DNA from: Methanomicrobiales archaeon HGW-Methanomicrobiales-2
Lineage (GTDB): Archaea; Halobacteriota; Methanomicrobia; Methanomicrobiales; Methanoculleaceae
Assembly: GCA_002839645.1 (NCBI GenBank)
Contig: PGYL01000013.1
Location: forward strand, 1-48,410
Direction: 5' to 3'
Length of the DNA: 48,410 nucleotides
The position numbers and the translations under genes are program-made. Of this stretch, positions 999 to 9,995 are shown in pieces (position 1 is the stretch's first letter; each line of letters starts with the position of its first letter). Under the pieces are notes generated by a model. The model was not told where the DNA came from. It did not search any database and saw nothing but the letters and a program-made list of their open reading frames with translations.

Positions 999-2468
999 CT
1001 ATGTCCAACCAATTATGTTTAATATTAGTGACTTGAATAATGCAATCTCTTCAGTTCTCAACCCTCTAAGTAGCAAAATTGAAATTGAGTACACGATAAT
1101 TCCGGCAAAAATAGAAATTATGACTTCAAATAGTTGCATTGGGTTTATCAAGAATATTATTCCAACCATTAATAATGATGATATGATACTCTTACCCAAA
1201 AATGCAATATCTATGGGAAATTTAATGTACCTAAACGATAGAAATAAACTAAGACAAACCATAACTCCAAACGATATGAATGCAGAAAATCCAGCTCCAA
1301 TTAACCCAAGAATTGGTATTAAAGTGACGTTCAGCAGGATACTAGAAACTGCTGCAATAATATACAAGTATAAGTTAAATTTAGTTTTTTTCACCAACTG
1401 AGTAACATTTATTGATATTTGATAGACTCCAAAAAACACCCCTCCAAAAGCAATGAAAGGTATAAGAATTGCACCTGAAATGTAGTCTGGTGTCGTAAAC
1501 CCCAATAGTAAAGGTGTTGCTAAAACTGAGATGCCAAATGCTGACGGAATTGCTATCAGTAGGAAATATTTTATTGAGTAAGCAAGGTAATTCTTGATCT
1601 GACTTAGGTTGCCCTCATCATAAATCTTAGACAATGCAGGAAATAGGATTATTTGTAACGGCGAGACTAGCATAAGTATAATGCTTGCTATTGTATATGC
1701 ACTAGAATAGATGCCTACAGCACTTATTCCAATTAATATCGCGATAATATATCTATCGCTCGAAGTCCTTAACCAATCAATCATAGGGTTTGGGGTTAAA
1801 GGAAGACCATATTTAAGAATGTCTCTCATCTCAGAGAATTCTGGGATTTTTATTCCAATGCGATGTATTGCAAGGATCACCGAGATAAAGAACATTACAG
1901 CATATATTACCAAGGTTGCAATAATGACCCCCAAAAGCCCAAATCCTAACATTAATAACGCAAAAACGAGGAAAAGATGACCAAGTGCCTGAGTTATTGT
2001 TAGCATTGCATATATCTTTACCAATTGAAAAATTCTAAAATAAAGTGAAGATATCTGATATAACGCCACAAATAATATCAAAAATGCAGCTAATCGTAAA
2101 TAGATTGCTATAAGTTGATCTTGGAAGACAAATAGAGCCAAATTATCTGAGAGAAGGAAAACAATTAGCGAAATGATCGAGCCTGAAATTATGGTGAACA
2201 GAATGCAGGAATAATAGTTATCCTTAATCTTTTCGAGATCTGTCTGCGCTGCTAAATACCTAATCATTGCTTGTGTTATTCCAAACTGGGCAAGTGGAGT
2301 TAGTAAAGAGACAGTCACCCAGATCTGTGCCCAAATCCCGTAATCGTGAACGGTTAAAGATTTTGTGATTATCGGCAGTAATAAAAATGCACTCAAAGCT
2401 GTTAGTAGTTGGGTCACGCCAATAGTAATAACATCTTTAGCAAACTGCCGATATGGTATTTTACTCAC
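999..2468 (-). CDS. Polysaccharide/oligosaccharide flippase, Wzx (MATE/MVF superfamily)
   Basis: This is a 489-residue integral membrane protein with about 12-14 hydrophobic segments along the whole length. Its opening, with the region LLPIITKSLTVHDYG, is typical of the polysaccharide biosynthesis flippase family (PF01943/PF13440 type), where an early membrane helix is followed by T-x-x-D-Y-G. Such proteins flip lipid-linked glycans across the membrane, here presumably for S-layer or other surface glycan assembly. The start is a GTG at 2468 preceded by AAAGG. The gene is strongly AT-rich compared with the later part of the window, suggesting transfer. It is the last gene of the minus-strand glycan block and borders the IS element; length and C-terminus look complete rather than truncated. 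Confidence 0.88.
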   Translation of the reverse strand: MSKIPYRQFAKDVITIGVTQLLTALSAFLLLPIITKSLTVHDYGIWAQIWVTVSLLTPLAQFGITQAMIRYLAAQTDLEKIKDNYYSCILFTIISGSIISLIVFLLSDNLALFVFQDQLIAIYLRLAAFLILFVALYQISSLYFRIFQLVKIYAMLTITQALGHLFLVFALLMLGFGLLGVIIATLVIYAVMFFISVILAIHRIGIKIPEFSEMRDILKYGLPLTPNPMIDWLRTSSDRYIIAILIGISAVGIYSSAYTIASIILMLVSPLQIILFPALSKIYDEGNLSQIKNYLAYSIKYFLLIAIPSAFGISVLATPLLLGFTTPDYISGAILIPFIAFGGVFFGVYQISINVTQLVKKTKFNLYLYIIAAVSSILLNVTLIPILGLIGAGFSAFISFGVMVCLSLFLSFRYIKFPIDIAFLGKSIISSLLMVGIIFLINPMQLFEVIISIFAGIIVYSISILLLRGLRTEEIALFKSLILNIIGWT

Positions 2469-2570
2469 CTTTCAATTTGTTTTATAACAATTCAATAGAT
2501 ACTGCCGGTCACACAAATTTACTTAGGATATCCAAAATGGCCCAGAATGGCTCGAATTTGTCAAAGCGCC

Positions 2571-4763
2571 TTAGATATATATTTTTGAACCTCCATTGCT
2601 GTATATAGCTTTTTTCCCTTCATAAAATCCCGTTGCTTGAACGAAATGTTTTGACTTCATAACACCAACCTTTTGGGTCACAACAAATTGCTTGTAATGA
2701 ATATTTTTCTGCCCGATAAATACATAGTAATCCCTATCATCTATATTTACAACCTGGATTTCGCGAACGGCTGGTTGTCCAACAATGCCTTCAAAAAGTA
2801 GACCTCTATATCTATCAGCGGCCACAGGACGACTATCTTTCATGTTGGCTAACCAGAGGGAACCATAAATTTCCTGTTCGCTAAAGACTGGGGCATCTAT
2901 GGATCTATTGAGAGTAAAGTACGACTCTTCGTGGGCGACTTCGGAAATCCACCCGGAGTTGAATAGCAGATATAACCCAAAGAATATCGCGATTACGTGT
3001 AGAGCATGACCATAGGAATCAGAGAGCCCCCTTAATTTAGACATGAGGGCTATCCCTCCAATAACAGCAAAAGGTGCCAGGAAGATTAGACTAATTTGAT
3101 AAAGGCGTGACGCATTGAGCGCGCTAGCAAAATATGGGAGAGCCACTCCTCCAACACAGATGCATAATGCGCCACATGACAGAAGAAGGTAGCGGATCTC
3201 AAATTTGTCCTTCCCCCAGCCAAATATGGCTGCAGAGGCAAGGCCAACAATGACAAACAAGATCGTCAATAGGTGCATATATTTGGTGACTTCACGCGTG
3301 AGTGTAGTTGTTTCATGTACAATTATTGCTACTCCCTCTGCTGCACTCGGACTGAACAGATCAGATAAGATATGCCCTAAGACAGATTGGCCAATGGACA
3401 CCACACTGTTATAGGTCGACAAATTCGCGATAACGAGATCCCAGATAAATAGAAAGAAGGCATACCAGATTACAAGGGGGACAGGTATAATAGATGGTTT
3501 GAAACTCACTCTTCTTACAGTCAACCTTGGAACAAGACCTGATTTCTTCTGTAGCCAATGGGAAAAACAGATTATGCGATCACGAATGCAAACGTGATGT
3601 TCAATAAACGCAATACCTAGTGCTAAGAGCAACAGAAGCAAAAAGAGATATGAAATGCCGTAATGAGAGACTACTAGAGATCCGCTGAAGAGTATGTATA
3701 GGGCTGACTTCTGTCGTCTCGATAAATCCTGATCAATTATTAAGAGAATGATTACGACTAGAAATAGTTCAGCAACCTCCTGCCTAGCCAAGGTGAGCAT
3801 CTCAGTAAAAAATACTATGATCGAAATAAAGAAAAAGCAGGCTAGAAATGCAATTTTTTCGTTGGTCTGTTTCTGAAAAACTTTATAGAGTCCGAGAGGT
3901 ACCAGTGCGAATAAGAACGGGTAAATAATCTTGAACACCCATTCCAGCCTCAGATTAAGAAGAATTGCATAGATTGGGGCAAGCGTAACAAGACTAAGCA
4001 TGGAGTTACAACTGCTGTAGTCAGTGAAATCCCAGAAAGAATTCTGAATCACAGTGTTGGTCAGATAGTATTCATACTGAATGTCATAGCCCCAGATATA
4101 TGTAGATATCAACGCTGTATGGTAGAGGAGCGTGATTGAAAGAGAAAAGACAATATAGGGGTAATACTTCTCAGGGATGCATCGAGTGTATATGATTATT
4201 ACTGGTATGATAGCGATGACTGGGAGGAGGATCATCTGGAGGACATTTGTATCATAAAAATTCATAAGATACGTTCCGGCGACCGCACCAAAGGGAATAA
4301 GGGAGAGTGCCAGCATCGGTGGTGAGAGGAGTCTAAGAGGGTTTACAGGGGCAGTGGTCGTAAAATCCTGATCCCTGATCCAAGCAAGAAGACACAGGAT
4401 CCCCACGAGAGCACTAATGGTAGTTACCAATGGCCAGAACGAAATCGGGCGAGAGATGCCAAGGAGTGGATAAACCATGTTTACGAAAAAGCCGGTGAAC
4501 ATCAGAGTGGAAATAGAGAGTCCTGTTGCGTAGACCGTTGTCTTCACAGCGCCGAGATGATGGACTTTAAGAACTCGCAGGATGAGTATGCCGGGCAAGT
4601 ATGAGAGGAAGAGGAAGCCGACGATCTGTCGAATGAGGGATATGGGGAAGATAAGGATGTCGAAGGCTATCGACCCCCAGAAGGCGAGCATCAGTGATAG
4701 TATCAATATGAGGAAGCGCCTGAGGTTCCAATCGTTCAATTGGAAGATATCATTTAGTGGCAT
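2571..4763 (-). CDS. DUF2206 multi-pass membrane protein
   Basis: This 730-residue protein has many hydrophobic segments over residues 15-610 and a soluble C-terminal part of about 110 residues. I recognise the architecture as the archaeal DUF2206 family of predicted membrane proteins, which recur in methanogen glycan and glycosyltransferase clusters; a biochemical role is not established, and a GT-C-like glycosyltransferase or glycan polymerase is a reasonable inference. The ATG at 4763 has a GGGG motif six bases upstream. Residues 1-70 are about half identical, without gaps, to the first 70 residues of the next gene upstream (4942-6276), showing partial gene duplication. The gene is less GC-rich than the regions beyond 8 kb. 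It lies between the chimeric glycosyltransferase and the flippase on the same strand. Confidence 0.78.
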   Translation of the reverse strand: MPLNDIFQLNDWNLRRFLILILSLMLAFWGSIAFDILIFPISLIRQIVGFLFLSYLPGILILRVLKVHHLGAVKTTVYATGLSISTLMFTGFFVNMVYPLLGISRPISFWPLVTTISALVGILCLLAWIRDQDFTTTAPVNPLRLLSPPMLALSLIPFGAVAGTYLMNFYDTNVLQMILLPVIAIIPVIIIYTRCIPEKYYPYIVFSLSITLLYHTALISTYIWGYDIQYEYYLTNTVIQNSFWDFTDYSSCNSMLSLVTLAPIYAILLNLRLEWVFKIIYPFLFALVPLGLYKVFQKQTNEKIAFLACFFFISIIVFFTEMLTLARQEVAELFLVVIILLIIDQDLSRRQKSALYILFSGSLVVSHYGISYLFLLLLLLALGIAFIEHHVCIRDRIICFSHWLQKKSGLVPRLTVRRVSFKPSIIPVPLVIWYAFFLFIWDLVIANLSTYNSVVSIGQSVLGHILSDLFSPSAAEGVAIIVHETTTLTREVTKYMHLLTILFVIVGLASAAIFGWGKDKFEIRYLLLSCGALCICVGGVALPYFASALNASRLYQISLIFLAPFAVIGGIALMSKLRGLSDSYGHALHVIAIFFGLYLLFNSGWISEVAHEESYFTLNRSIDAPVFSEQEIYGSLWLANMKDSRPVAADRYRGLLFEGIVGQPAVREIQVVNIDDRDYYVFIGQKNIHYKQFVVTQKVGVMKSKHFVQATGFYEGKKAIYSNGGSKIYI
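4554..4763 (-). repeat. Duplicated 5' gene segment, copy 1 (head of DUF2206 gene)
   Basis: Codons 1-70 of the DUF2206 gene align without gaps to codons 1-70 of the chimeric glycosyltransferase (6067-6276). I count about 34 identical residues, including MP..D.FQ.NDW, LAF.GS, RQ..GFLFL and the closing HH. The similarity seems to extend weakly into the upstream non-coding sequence (GGCCGGACTTTCTGA versus GGTTCTGGGCTGTCTGA). Confidence 0.75.
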
Positions 4764-4941
4764 TATTTTCCCCTAAAATCTCTTAAACCGGTAGTTTACA
4801 GACGGGGCCGGACTTTCTGAACAGATGAGTATTCTGTTGGTATGCCCCTGTTCGTCCAAGATCAACACCTGATCGTTTCTTAGCAAATACCAAGTAGTCT
4901 ACCTTGATCGCGCAGAAGACCCGATTTTGTCTAATCCCATA

Positions 4942-6276
4942 TTAAATCTCCTCTAATATTTCTTTCCACCGAGTGATCACACGCTCAAACGTAAAATTAT
5001 CTTGGACAAACTGCCTTCCATGTTCCGCGACCTGCTCCAGTTCTGGAGAGTTCAGCGCCCGGATAACGTTCGCTGCGATGCATTCGGGGGAGTTATTCTC
5101 CATAATAAACCCGGTTCTACCATCTGTGATGATATCCGGGATTGCCCCGACCGAGGTCGCGAGTACCGGGGTCCCGCAGGCCATGGCCTCGAGCATGATG
5201 TTCGGAAGGCCTTCAGTGTAGGAAGGGAGGACAAGGAGGCACAACTGATTCAGGTACTTAGGGAGGTCGTCGTGGGAGATCCAACCCGGAAGGTGAACGC
5301 GTGTGGCAAGCCCTTCTTTCTGCAGAGAGGCTTGGACCGCCTCCTTTAATTGCCCATCCCCGCCGATGAGTATGCGGAGTTCCTCCCGATCATTGAGGAT
5401 GGACGGGAGCGCTTGGGTAAAGTTTTCAATGCCTTTCTCCCCGCTTAGCCGGCCGATGTAGCCAATGAGAGGAGGCCGATTGGGCAGAGGGGTAGTGACG
5501 GTGAAGTTGGTGAAGTCTAGGAAGTGTCGGTGAGCGATTAAAATTTTGTGCCGGTATTTTTCCATGTGCCACTCTTGGATGAGAGCAGAGGAATAAAGAA
5601 TTATCTTATCCGAAAGGAAGCAGTTAATCCTTGAAGATACTGCTGTAAATTTGAGAAGATTATCATTCGAGTATTTAGCATTTCGTTGCAGAGATCCTGC
5701 TTTGACAAAGAAAATTTTTTTCCTATTTAATTTTGCGATTAGCATAGGTAGAATGTACTGATCACCTCCAAAGGAAAAAAACCAAAAGTTTACCGATTTA
5801 TTTAACCTCATAATTGAGTGTGCGATACGCACTTCTCTTAATACGTAACCAATGATTATGCGCAGAGATGTTCTTTCAAGAGTATAAGGCACTGCATATA
5901 TGCTAATTCGGTCCATTTCTCTAATGGGGCGTGTATCTCCACCTCCAGTTACAATGTATGTATAATTGGAAAGGGAACTTACAATATTAACAAAATGCAA
6001 TGTCGGCACCATGTTAGACCCTACAAGAGGGAACGTAAATATGCCAAAGTTTGGCTTCTGATCGTTCACATGATGGATTTGAAGTGCATTTAAAAGAAGG
6101 ATGTCGAGCACGAAAGTGAGGAAGAGGAAACCAATCACCTGCCGGAAAAGGGTGACGGGGACGTTGAGGGTGTCAAGGATTACTGAGCCCAAAAAGGCGA
6201 GGAAGAGTGTTAATACTACCGCGAGAGAGCATCTGAACTCCCAATCATTTCCTTGGAAGACGTCACTTATTGGCAT
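4942..6276 (-). CDS. Chimeric protein: DUF2206-like two-helix head fused to a GT4 glycosyltransferase
   Basis: The 444-residue product has two parts. Residues 1-70 repeat the head of the neighbouring DUF2206 protein and contain two membrane helices (about 14-34 and 43-65). From about residue 75 (FGIFTFPLVGSN) it is a group-1 (GT4) glycosyltransferase with the C-terminal domain signatures IGYIGRLSGEKG, LLVLPSYTEGLPNIMLEAMA and CGTPVLATSVGAIPDII, the usual donor-nucleotide region with the E-x7-E pattern. Composition changes inside the gene: the head and the last 200 codons are moderately GC-rich, while the middle (about 5570-6060) is very AT-rich, so it looks like a three-part mosaic. The start ATG at 6276 has GGAGGG four bases upstream. 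Expected role: adding a sugar to a surface glycan, possibly tethered to the membrane by the acquired helices. Confidence 0.83.
   Translation of the reverse strand: MPISDVFQGNDWEFRCSLAVVLTLFLAFLGSVILDTLNVPVTLFRQVIGFLFLTFVLDILLLNALQIHHVNDQKPNFGIFTFPLVGSNMVPTLHFVNIVSSLSNYTYIVTGGGDTRPIREMDRISIYAVPYTLERTSLRIIIGYVLREVRIAHSIMRLNKSVNFWFFSFGGDQYILPMLIAKLNRKKIFFVKAGSLQRNAKYSNDNLLKFTAVSSRINCFLSDKIILYSSALIQEWHMEKYRHKILIAHRHFLDFTNFTVTTPLPNRPPLIGYIGRLSGEKGIENFTQALPSILNDREELRILIGGDGQLKEAVQASLQKEGLATRVHLPGWISHDDLPKYLNQLCLLVLPSYTEGLPNIMLEAMACGTPVLATSVGAIPDIITDGRTGFIMENNSPECIAANVIRALNSPELEQVAEHGRQFVQDNFTFERVITRWKEILEEI
6067..6276 (-). repeat. Duplicated 5' gene segment, copy 2 (head of chimeric glycosyltransferase)
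   Basis: This is the partner of the segment at 4554-4763: 70 codons, about half of the residues identical, with no gaps. The similarity ends where the glycosyltransferase domain begins (NDQKPNFGIF), marking the fusion point near 6067. Confidence 0.75.
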
Positions 6277-6365
6277 TGTCCCTCCTTATAGTCTATTTGG
6301 GTTATTACCTGCCATAATCGGTTCTGGGCTGTCTGAGGCGATGAACTGTCTGTCGCATATGTTCA

Positions 6366-7481
6366 CTACTGTTTATGATCAAGTCTGCCATAAACTTCCA
6401 ATAACCGCTTCTCCATGATTTCCCAGTTGTACTTTGTCTCATAAGCCTTCCGGCCATTCTCACCAAGGCGCCCGCACAGGGTCGGATCGTTTTTTAGCAT
6501 AAGGATTGCACGTTTGACCGCGTTGATATCCCCATATGACACAACAAGGCCACAGTTTTCTTCCCTCACAATATCGGCCATCGCTGTCCCATCACTTACC
6601 AAGATTGGCTTTCCACACATCATCGCTTCGAATAATTTATTTGGGCTGGCATAGCGGTTATTAGGGACATCAGGATCGTAGAGAGCAAACAACATGTCCG
6701 ATTGTAACGTTTTCTGGATGACCCTATCATAAGGGATAGTTCCGATATACATGACATTGGGTTCCTGCTCACTCAGAGCTTCTATGTGCTCTGCATGGCA
6801 TCCAAATCCGGCAAATTCGATCTGGATCCCCTCAACGCCTTTTGCTGCTAGGATAGCTGTTTCAAAATCTCTCCCCTCTCCGAGTACTCCGGCATAGAAG
6901 ATCTTAAATGGATTCCACCGTTTTTTCTGCACATCCATCGTGAACGAGGCCGGGAAATCCTCTGGAGAGTTGTAGATGATATAGACGCTGGGATCCATCT
7001 CTCTCCCAATCTGCCTCAACCGGCTGGGATCCACCACAATAACTGTGTCTGCAAATCTCATTAAAAAACTATCCAAAGTGGCTACACAGTTCCTGACAGA
7101 TGAGGGCAATGTCACCAAATCTGCATAAAAATCGAAGATATCATATACTATTTTTTTCCTTTTCATTTTTGCGGCAAGAATGGCAGGGACATATGTATCG
7201 AGATCCGCAGCATGGACGACATCCCAATCCTCCTTTAGCAACCAGAGAAACGCAAGAGTCCACCAAATGGGTAGATAGAGGACAACTTTTTTTTCAACAG
7301 GTGCCCTGAATTTCAGACGTCTGATGGTATAATGACACCGCTTCTCCTGGACCGGCGCATCGCCAAATCTCTGCCATCCTAGTAAAGTTACATCATGACC
7401 TTTGTCCGCTAATGTTTTCGCTTCTTTCTCAAGCCTGACATCAGGATCAATTGGATTAGAACGGAGCATGAAGATTTTCAC
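6366..7481 (-). CDS. GT4 family glycosyltransferase
   Basis: A 371-residue glycosyltransferase of the GT-B fold, group 1. The N-terminus (KIFMLRSNPIDPDVRLEKEA) and the C-terminal domain FYAGVLGEGRDFETAI, ALYDPDVPNNRYASPNKLFEAM and CGKPILVSDGTAMADIV are characteristic; the second Glu of the donor-binding pair is in KLFEAM. It should transfer a sugar from a nucleotide donor to a lipid-linked acceptor in the cytoplasm. I chose GTG at 7481 because AGAGGT lies nine bases upstream and the resulting MKIFMLRSNPIDPD is the usual family start; GTG at 7490 is the alternative. The gene belongs to the minus-strand glycan block. Confidence 0.85.
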   Translation of the reverse strand: MKIFMLRSNPIDPDVRLEKEAKTLADKGHDVTLLGWQRFGDAPVQEKRCHYTIRRLKFRAPVEKKVVLYLPIWWTLAFLWLLKEDWDVVHAADLDTYVPAILAAKMKRKKIVYDIFDFYADLVTLPSSVRNCVATLDSFLMRFADTVIVVDPSRLRQIGREMDPSVYIIYNSPEDFPASFTMDVQKKRWNPFKIFYAGVLGEGRDFETAILAAKGVEGIQIEFAGFGCHAEHIEALSEQEPNVMYIGTIPYDRVIQKTLQSDMLFALYDPDVPNNRYASPNKLFEAMMCGKPILVSDGTAMADIVREENCGLVVSYGDINAVKRAILMLKNDPTLCGRLGENGRKAYETKYNWEIMEKRLLEVYGRLDHKQ

Positions 7482-7623
7482 GCGTCTCACACCTCTGGTT
7501 CTTGAACGGACGACGTGCCACAGAGGTTGGCCACATAGATACTTCCGTCAATCTGTTTCCATTCCTTCCACCACGCACTCCTCCCACTATGAGAGTAATA
7601 TGGAGGGTTCAAGAGGCAGATCC

Positions 7624-8586
7624 TCAAGACGTACCTCCCTTTGAGATGGCTTCGATTATACCCTTCCAGAACCCAAACGTATAGGACGCATGCTCAAGGA
7701 TGAACACAATGGGTATCGAGATGAGATACTCGGGCTTTCGTGTTCTGGTGATGAGGAGCAGAGTGTATCCACCGATAATCCCCACGTAGGTAAGGAGCAG
7801 GGCAAAGAACGCTGGGGGTGCAATGAACGCAGTCAGAAGAATGCCGATGGCCGCAATCGGAGGGATCACCTGCATATCCCATAACCGGTTAGCACCCCGA
7901 CCGTAACCAAAGAAGTGCATCCTTCTTACGAAATCCCTGAGCCCCCTTTCTTGGTGGTGGTGGACAATAGCTTCTGGTGTGTATATGAGCGTGCCAAGCC
8001 GCTGAAGCCGTGTGTTTATCTCGGTATCCTCGTTGATAGAGAGACGGACATCAAACCCTCCGACAGTCACGAGATCCTCCTTCTGGTAGATGCTGTTGCA
8101 GCCGCTGATGCTCTTAACGATCCTCTTCTTCTTGAGCACCCTGTCCTGGACTGAGTTGGCACTCCCAAGGAAAGTGTCGAGGGCGAGGGCAATGGACTCC
8201 TCCCAGAGTCCTTTGCCGATGTTCTTGATCCCCCCTCCTACACCCACAACACCACTATCAAACTCACAGACTAGGTTTTCCAGCCAGTCCTTCCGGGGGA
8301 TGCAATCTGCATCGGTAAAGGCAACATAGTCCCCCTGGGCATGCTCGATACCGACCTGACGTGCACCGCCGACAGTCCCATAGTCCTCGTACATCACGGT
8401 GACTGGGAATCTTCCAGCGATCTCTACGGTGGAATCAGTGGAGTGCCCGTCTACAACAATGACCTCGCAGGGCTGCAGAGTCTGGTCGAGAAGTGCCTGA
8501 AGGCATCGTGCAATCTTTGGCGCCTCGTTACGAACTGGAACAACCACAGATACTTTTGGGGTTGAATGTTTGGTTGCGTTCATCAT
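7624..8586 (-). CDS. GT2 family glycosyltransferase with C-terminal membrane helices
   Basis: A GT-A fold, family 2 enzyme. It begins with VSVVVPVRNEAPKIARCLQA, followed by VIVVDGHSTDST, the D-x-D region FTDADCIPRKDW and an INEDTEINTRL segment carrying the catalytic ED. The last 100 residues contain two or three hydrophobic helices (IAAIGILLTAFIAPPAFFAL and after), so the enzyme is membrane-bound. The frame is open up to a TTG at 8658 that overlaps the upstream gene, but tandem ATG codons at 8586/8583 directly precede the GT2 fold and give a 320-residue protein, so I place the start there. It lies about 50 bp behind the DPM1-like gene and is probably co-transcribed with it. Confidence 0.85.
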   Translation of the reverse strand: MMNATKHSTPKVSVVVPVRNEAPKIARCLQALLDQTLQPCEVIVVDGHSTDSTVEIAGRFPVTVMYEDYGTVGGARQVGIEHAQGDYVAFTDADCIPRKDWLENLVCEFDSGVVGVGGGIKNIGKGLWEESIALALDTFLGSANSVQDRVLKKKRIVKSISGCNSIYQKEDLVTVGGFDVRLSINEDTEINTRLQRLGTLIYTPEAIVHHHQERGLRDFVRRMHFFGYGRGANRLWDMQVIPPIAAIGILLTAFIAPPAFFALLLTYVGIIGGYTLLLITRTRKPEYLISIPIVFILEHASYTFGFWKGIIEAISKGGTS

Positions 8587-8638
8587 GCCCCTGCGTGGAT
8601 TCTGGCAATTATCAGTCGTTGTCCGAGGACGATCGCAA

Positions 8639-9778
8639 TCATTCCGGGACCCCCTCAACAGGATGCGGCGCCCTCTCCTCGGCCACCTCGGAGCCCTCCG
8701 CGTGCAGGAAGGTAACTATGGGACTGGAATCAGAAGCCACTCGCCCCGCGCTCTCCTGTCCCTGCAGAATGATCTGCACAAGCGAATACAGGATCATCCC
8801 CACCGCGACGAGCAGGAGCCCGAGGATGAGCATGGAGAAGCCACCGGTAAAGAGGACATAGTGGAACTCAGCGGTGCGGTAATACTCAGAGAATGTGTGA
8901 AGTTCCGCGCCGAGCCCGAAGAGGGTGAAGACCAGACCCGGAATGCCGAAGAACACGAGAGGCCGGCGGAGACTGATGAGCCTGACGATGTTCATAAGCA
9001 CTTCGATGCCGTGGGAGACCGGGTTCTCGCTTGAGGTCCCCTCGATGTCGTAACGCACCCGGATCGGCACCTCGGCGACGTTCAGGCGATGGTCGCTGAT
9101 CAGGATCAGGATCTCCGAGCCGGCACTCATCCCCTCGTCGCTGATACGGATGGCCTCGATTGCCTTTCTCCCGTAGGCCCGGAACCCGCTCTGGGAGTCG
9201 GTGATCGTGAGATTGGTCCCCGCTATCGTGGTAGCAGTATCGAGGATCTTCATCCCGACCTTGCGGTAGGCAGGGATCTCTGCGTTCGAGTCGTCAATAA
9301 ACCGGGAACCGATGACGACATCGTTACCCTTCCTGAGTTCGGCAAGGAGCCGGGGGATGTCTCCTGGGTTGTGCTGGCCGTCGGAGTCGATGATGACGAG
9401 CTCCTCCGCACCGAGGTCCCGGGCGGTGCAAAAGATGGTCTGCAACGCCCCGCCGTAGCCTTTATTGGTCTCGTGCTGAACGACAAGCGCCCCGAGCGCC
9501 CCGGCAATCCGGACGGTGTCATCCTTCGAGCCGTCGTCGACGACCAGGACGGCGTCGGCATGCTGCTGTGCACCGACGATGGTCTTTGCGATGTATGCCT
9601 CCTCATTGTAGGCCGGCATGGCGACGAGGGTCCGCACGGTGCCGGCCTGCTGCCCTTCGGAATCGCAGTTTGCCGGTTCCTTGATGAGAAGGGTTACTCC
9701 GTTTCCGTTACCGCCGTGCCTGGTGGGCTGCTCTCCGACCGTGCGGCTGGTAAAAAGGGAGTGCGGCCGGGTGTTCAT
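8639..9778 (-). CDS. DPM1/DPG-type GT2 glycosyltransferase
   Basis: This 379-residue protein has a GT2 domain similar to dolichol-phosphate mannosyl/glucosyl synthases: VAMPAYNEEAYIAKTI, VLVVDDGSKDDT, TNKGYGGALQT, VIIDSDGQHNPGDI (D-x-D) and VIGSRFI. It ends with two membrane helices (about 295-315 and 325-350) as in the PMT_2a/GtrB group. Expected product: a dolichyl-phosphate-linked sugar, used by the membrane glycosyltransferases of archaeal N-glycosylation. ATG at 9778 is preceded by GGGAG at eight bases; the GTG at 9787 is poorly spaced. It is the first gene of the minus-strand block and much more GC-rich than the distal genes. The C-terminal 40 residues are not recognised. Confidence 0.88.
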   Translation of the reverse strand: MNTRPHSLFTSRTVGEQPTRHGGNGNGVTLLIKEPANCDSEGQQAGTVRTLVAMPAYNEEAYIAKTIVGAQQHADAVLVVDDGSKDDTVRIAGALGALVVQHETNKGYGGALQTIFCTARDLGAEELVIIDSDGQHNPGDIPRLLAELRKGNDVVIGSRFIDDSNAEIPAYRKVGMKILDTATTIAGTNLTITDSQSGFRAYGRKAIEAIRISDEGMSAGSEILILISDHRLNVAEVPIRVRYDIEGTSSENPVSHGIEVLMNIVRLISLRRPLVFFGIPGLVFTLFGLGAELHTFSEYYRTAEFHYVLFTGGFSMLILGLLLVAVGMILYSLVQIILQGQESAGRVASDSSPIVTFLHAEGSEVAEERAPHPVEGVPE

Positions 9779-9995
9779 CGCGACCACTCCCGGGACGCGG
9801 GCATGCGAACCGGAGTTGAGAATACTCCCTGCTCCGTGGACGTCCTGCGGCAGCGATTTTCCTCCCCGGTATCGCTGGCAGCCTGAGTTTTGCTCTCAGC
9901 GTTATCTGACCCCGACCGGGTCCCATACTCTGCATGAAACGACATCCATCCGGATACCACGGAAACACACCCCTACGCAGGCCCTCAGACCGCGT

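Follow-up and report, generated by a model that had tools for sequence, protein, structure and literature searches.

How did a GT4 glycosyltransferase gene come to begin with the head of a membrane protein from another family, DUF2206, and is the fused form made? The question was raised by a gene in the window, i.e., the whole stretch of 48,410 nucleotides analysed here, which is one of 69 contigs in a genome of 2.78 Mb. The gene lies in a glycan cluster spanning 999–9787, together with a flippase, a DUF2206 gene, another GT4 and two GT2 genes (Table 1); a DDE transposase (PF01609) was present at 82–738, at the edge of the cluster. The first-pass annotation had placed the fusion at 4554–6276. 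That interval takes in an intergenic gap and the head of the neighbouring DUF2206 gene as well as the fused gene itself, which spans 4942–6276.

Table 1. Features of the fused gene and of its neighbours, in window coordinates.
Feature	Position	Strand	Evidence
Fused gene, DUF2206 head plus GT4, 444 aa	4942..6276	-	PF00534, E 4e-37 at residues 262–415; GT-B fold in predicted structure
DUF2206-like head, codons 1–69, two predicted helices (residues 11–37 and 41–63 in the model)	6070..6276	-	34/70 aa identity to DUF2206 head; modelled helices
Shine-Dalgarno motif AAGGAGG, spacer GACA before ATG	6281..6287	-	Sequence
Codon 70, GTG, position of native GT4 start; DUF2206 similarity ends here	6067..6069	-	Starts of relatives
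AT-rich N-terminal domain of the GT4 (acceptor side), apparently swapped among relatives	5593..6069	-	Mean identity in clade 28%; GC3 0.37 here
GC-rich, conserved C-terminal domain of the GT4 (donor side), EX7E motif	4942..5592	-	Mean identity in clade 74%; four-fold sites clearly above chance level
Intact DUF2206 membrane protein, 730 aa, family of the head	2571..4763	-	PF09971, E 1.5e-58
Upstream GT4, other type	6366..7490	-	Domain search

A GT4 gene with a DUF2206-like head

The enzyme part of the fused protein was recognised in domain searches, where Glycos_transf_1 (PF00534) scored 127.7 bits against a curated cut-off of 26.4, and the EX7E motif read EGLPNIMLE. The predicted structure (mean pLDDT 85) had a GT-B fold, the first strand of which started at residue 77, and the GT4 part was complete. 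Among solved structures the model most resembled BshA (E 7e-22, TM 0.67/0.78), with PglA also among the best matches. As a predicted GT4, the product would transfer sugar from an activated donor, and this activity is presumably retained in the fused protein. The N-domain had no match to the usual Pfam models for GT4 N-domains; the PF09971 domain was absent from the fused protein, and the head alone matched no Pfam family.

Residues 1–70 aligned without gaps to residues 1–70 of the protein encoded by the adjacent DUF2206 gene, with 34 identical. A genome-wide search with the head as query found the DUF2206 head at E 4e-19, while 100,000 shuffles of that head gave at best 20/70 identities in register; the gapless match at about half identity that had been described at first pass was therefore confirmed. 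At the DNA level, 122/180 nucleotides were identical (68%, blastn E 1e-13) and the similarity began at the start codon. Conservation between head and neighbour peaked at the second codon position (57/70, compared with 41/70 at the first and 40/70 at the third), and the reading frame of the head was open over 69 codons despite 32% DNA divergence. The head of one DUF2206 member was also weakly like DUF1616 (PF07760).

The change from head to enzyme was as abrupt as first described: identities between the fused GT4 and DUF2206 fell from 4/10 at residues 61–70 to 1/10 at residues 71–80 and 0/10 at residues 81–90. An apparent extension of the head match into GT4 residues 71–118, considered as a larger remnant, was attributed to chance because this stretch aligns as GT4 in relatives. 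In those relatives the GT4 starts 6–10 residues before a conserved Gly, and the equivalent position here is codon 70, a GTG; thus, Methanoculleus sp. Afa-1 (counterpart on NZ_VHLL01000005.1) starts MNKKNLKLGIF where this gene reads VNDQKPNFGIF. DUF2206 similarity stops at codon 69/70, coinciding with this native start. Hence, the head was joined at the native start or within one codon of it.

The first ATG is preceded by its Shine-Dalgarno motif at a spacing of four bases, while no such motif was found upstream of the internal GTG. The restriction of a strong motif to the first ATG favours the fused product, which is probably made from that codon. In the model, the two helices of the head had low confidence (pLDDT about 57–67) and were followed by a disordered or flexible linker of about 13 residues. 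As had been proposed at first pass, two membrane helices were predicted on a GT4 of cytoplasmic type, in frame on an otherwise complete enzyme. The head probably anchors the enzyme to the membrane; from the modelled topology, the N-terminus and the catalytic domain would share one side of the membrane, presumed to be the cytoplasmic one.

An unlikely alternative, yet the strongest of those considered, is that the head has no use, being left over from a deleted DUF2206 gene, and that translation of the GT4 still begins at the native GTG. An internal start, which had been anticipated near residue 75, is possible at codon 70, since the GTG falls exactly on the native start. In addition, the Pro-Gly pair of helix 2, kept in 39/39 DUF2206 heads and in the neighbour, has become Leu-Asp in the fused head (residues 57–58), which can be read as a sign of relaxed constraint. 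However, the GTG has no Shine-Dalgarno motif of its own, ribosomes starting at the well-spaced ATG would read through into the GT4, and the hydrophobic pattern has been kept over both helices. Loss of an otherwise invariant pair indicates that the head is no longer held to the requirements of DUF2206 and is now at most an anchor.

Origin and age of the head

Only 8/16 four-fold sites were identical between the fused head and the neighbouring DUF2206 gene, and 19 of the 34 identical residues used the same codon. This synonymous divergence is approximately that seen between DUF2206 heads of different genera, so the head is not a recent copy. Much of its divergence may predate the fusion, although with one example this is inseparable from later change. 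The two DUF2206 bodies that the genome encodes both have a head of their own; the third head is therefore the remains of another copy rather than one misplaced. The second of these genes (contig C59, 25959–28183; locus L003) is interrupted by a run of N.

The best explanation, and one we consider moderately probable, is an in-frame deletion in an upstream DUF2206 gene, which would have left a membrane-held GT4 expressed from the old DUF2206 start. A DUF2206 gene would formerly have stood directly upstream of the GT4 in the glycan cluster, giving the row DUF2206-GT4-DUF2206. A one-step deletion from about codon 70 of this gene to the GT4 start would have joined 69 codons in frame to the GTG, and the gene would now rely on the start codon and ribosome-binding site of the lost DUF2206 gene. 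The product would be a GT4 held by a two-helix hairpin, its catalytic domain cytoplasmic and probably close to a lipid-linked acceptor. Apart from the head, it would be an ordinary GT4, the N-half of which had been exchanged earlier against a conserved C-half, as in relatives. The same product would have arisen had the head alone been duplicated or inserted, which is an alternative to deletion.

A check for a second DUF2206 gene at this position in relatives had been proposed at first pass. In one locus (L085), a complete DUF2206 gene lies directly upstream of a related GT4 (46% identity) on the same strand, about 90 nt apart; however, no full upstream DUF2206 gene was found beside a close relative of this GT4 among the genomes searched. 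The L085 contig (434–4154, DUF2206 then GT4) was binned as Dehalococcoidia but carries archaeal-type genes, which indicates mis-binning or transfer. Several comparison contigs likewise had bacterial bin names but archaeal-like loci, and were used purely as sequences. The order GT4 then DUF2206, as in the window, occurred in G087, G046, L083 and L095, and neighbourhood comparison showed that the counterpart of the fused GT4 is also preceded by a GT4 in many relatives. In many relatives a large membrane protein of about 616 aa (L072, 6134–7981, and counterparts), for which no Pfam match was found, follows the GT4 in the place that DUF2206 occupies here.

The first-pass annotation had preferred recombination between paralogous loci. 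If this is taken to mean that the adjacent DUF2206 gene recently recombined with the GT4 gene, or converted it, and so supplied head, promoter and ribosome-binding site together, it now appears improbable. In DNA the head is indeed most similar to the neighbour (138/210 identical, the next best being 119/210), but at four-fold sites and in amino acids the two are no closer than heads of different genera, and in-frame deletion is the simpler event. Nor was there any similarity between the two genes upstream of the ATG, and so no shared promoter. Of the ready-made expression signals that had been proposed, the ribosome binding site stood, in the form of a good Shine-Dalgarno motif, while a promoter in common with the neighbour did not.

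Occurrence of the fusion and the halves of the GT4 clade

When the full protein was compared with 232 genomes of the order, 61 matches were obtained in 52 genomes, self included, and only this gene matched from residue 1. The 60 remaining GT4 matches thus all lacked a DUF2206 head, as did the GT4s at 45 loci obtained when 84,980 species genomes were scanned; sampling comprised one genome per species. GT4 homologues carrying the head natively, a possibility that the first-pass annotation had raised against its own reading, were absent from both sets. Apart from the fused gene, queries with the head alone recovered just DUF2206 genes, some of them incomplete because of a gap or the end of a contig. 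L003, L005 and L071, which carry short frames with the head, are incomplete in this way and were rejected as fusions. Long GT4 frames in G017, G192, G213, G086 and G108 were also rejected, since they had no hydrophobic head. The match in G005 could be extended to residues 35–70, but this stretch was rejected as a decayed head: it contained five stops, added about 2 bits and showed no DNA similarity. No copies were found in viral contigs. The fusion is private to this genome within all sets searched.

Within the assembly the fusion is genuine, a single-genome event. That two unrelated fragments were united by an assembly artefact is very improbable. The assembly is in many contigs with gaps elsewhere, such as the run of N noted above, and the fusion occurs in one genome only; against this, the junction contains no gap and keeps the reading frame into the native start codon, head and neighbour are too dissimilar for repeat confusion to be likely, and the genome contains no orphan DUF2206 body lacking its head. 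That the head is native to an unsampled GT4 subfamily is scarcely credible, for although sampling beyond the order was restricted to close matches, no hydrophobic head was found in any GT4 relative examined, down to about 31% identity.

Composition shifts twice within the fused gene, as had been reported at first pass: GC was approximately 0.5 in the head, 0.29–0.42 in the N-domain and 0.5–0.63 in the C-domain. These steps had both been taken as marks of the head fusion, but the second, from AT-rich to GC-rich near 5600, is common to about 20 relatives, in which GC3 was 0.23–0.54 for N-halves and mostly 0.58–0.84 for C-halves. Among 20 genes, pairwise identity averaged 28% for N-halves and 74% for C-halves; Afa-1 and FWC-SCC3, for instance, share 86% of the C-half and about a third of the N-half. 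Four-fold sites gave 0.27 in the N-half, where 0.27 was expected by chance, and 0.58 in the C-half, where 0.33 was expected. The median change point across 190 pairs was residue 239 (interquartile range 231–246), with nucleotide identity of 44% before and 76% after, and relatedness of N-halves was uncorrelated with that of C-halves (Mantel test, r = 0.08, p = 0.26); both tests used one alignment, in which pairs are not independent. In a control clade of this GT4 type, neither the step nor the mismatch appeared (N 79%, C 81%, r = 0.82).

In close pairs, DNA homology started sharply inside the gene and in some cases ran into the next gene. C-halves of the clade were conserved and host-like, while N-halves were AT-rich and nearly unrelated; the closest N-domain found, in the same-genus genome G005, had 44–49% identity. 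Selection on the protein alone poorly explains the synonymous difference, and exchange of halves is the best explanation. By this comparison of sequences, the second composition step is not part of the head fusion and is best explained by an older, clade-wide exchange of the N-terminal (acceptor) domain.

Mosaic counterparts of 4942–5592, with the boundary near residue 239, were observed in L072, L096, L082, L073, L081 and L074. Copies of the GT4 C-half that are partial or lie at a contig edge occurred in L110 (3361–3654), L101 (3–455), L107 (3–491), L111 (138–438), L090 (8803–9048) and L093 (1018–1473); several stand directly before the membrane-protein gene, and these copies are possible leftovers of exchange.

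Comparison with known systems

The fusion would clearly exemplify the single-step gain of a membrane anchor by a soluble enzyme, which here was joined at its old start codon. With donor and acceptor halves that have separate histories across Methanomicrobiales, the GT4 clade provides a natural domain-swap series, which could be used to test which half sets donor and which sets acceptor choice, and which also bears on how methanogens vary their surface glycans. A further reading, which we consider improbable, is that the head is a working docking module: having acquired the two leading helices of the partner family, the GT4 would sit in the membrane complex of its DUF2206 partner and hand over its product, while the clade swaps acceptor halves. 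If so, the GT4 and a large membrane protein, either DUF2206 or the family without a name, would be a conserved gene pair, and the clade would diversify surface glycans through acceptor halves swapped against a fixed donor half.

Like other GT4 enzymes (PF00534; BshA, Campylobacter PglA), the fused protein has the GT-B fold, Glycos_transf_1 and the EX7E motif, and is complete from its native start; it differs in the addition of a 69-residue hydrophobic head from another family. With the archaeal DUF2206 membrane proteins (PF09971) it shares homology over the first 70 residues, but it lacks the remainder, including the PF09971 domain, as well as the Pro-Gly of helix 2. No mention of DUF2206 was found in the literature searched, where the only directly relevant account of natural chimeric or domain-swapped glycosyltransferases was that of segmentally variable genes (2004, PMC387263), among which glycosyltransferases have variable acceptor and conserved donor domains. 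The GT4 clade shares this arrangement of a conserved donor-side and a variable acceptor-side half. It differs in that its halves are distinct in synonymous divergence and GC and uncorrelated in their relationships, which points to physical exchange of halves rather than fast divergence in place. Half-swapping in this clade is a strong case of a known kind, and extends the segmentally variable glycosyltransferases (PMC387263).
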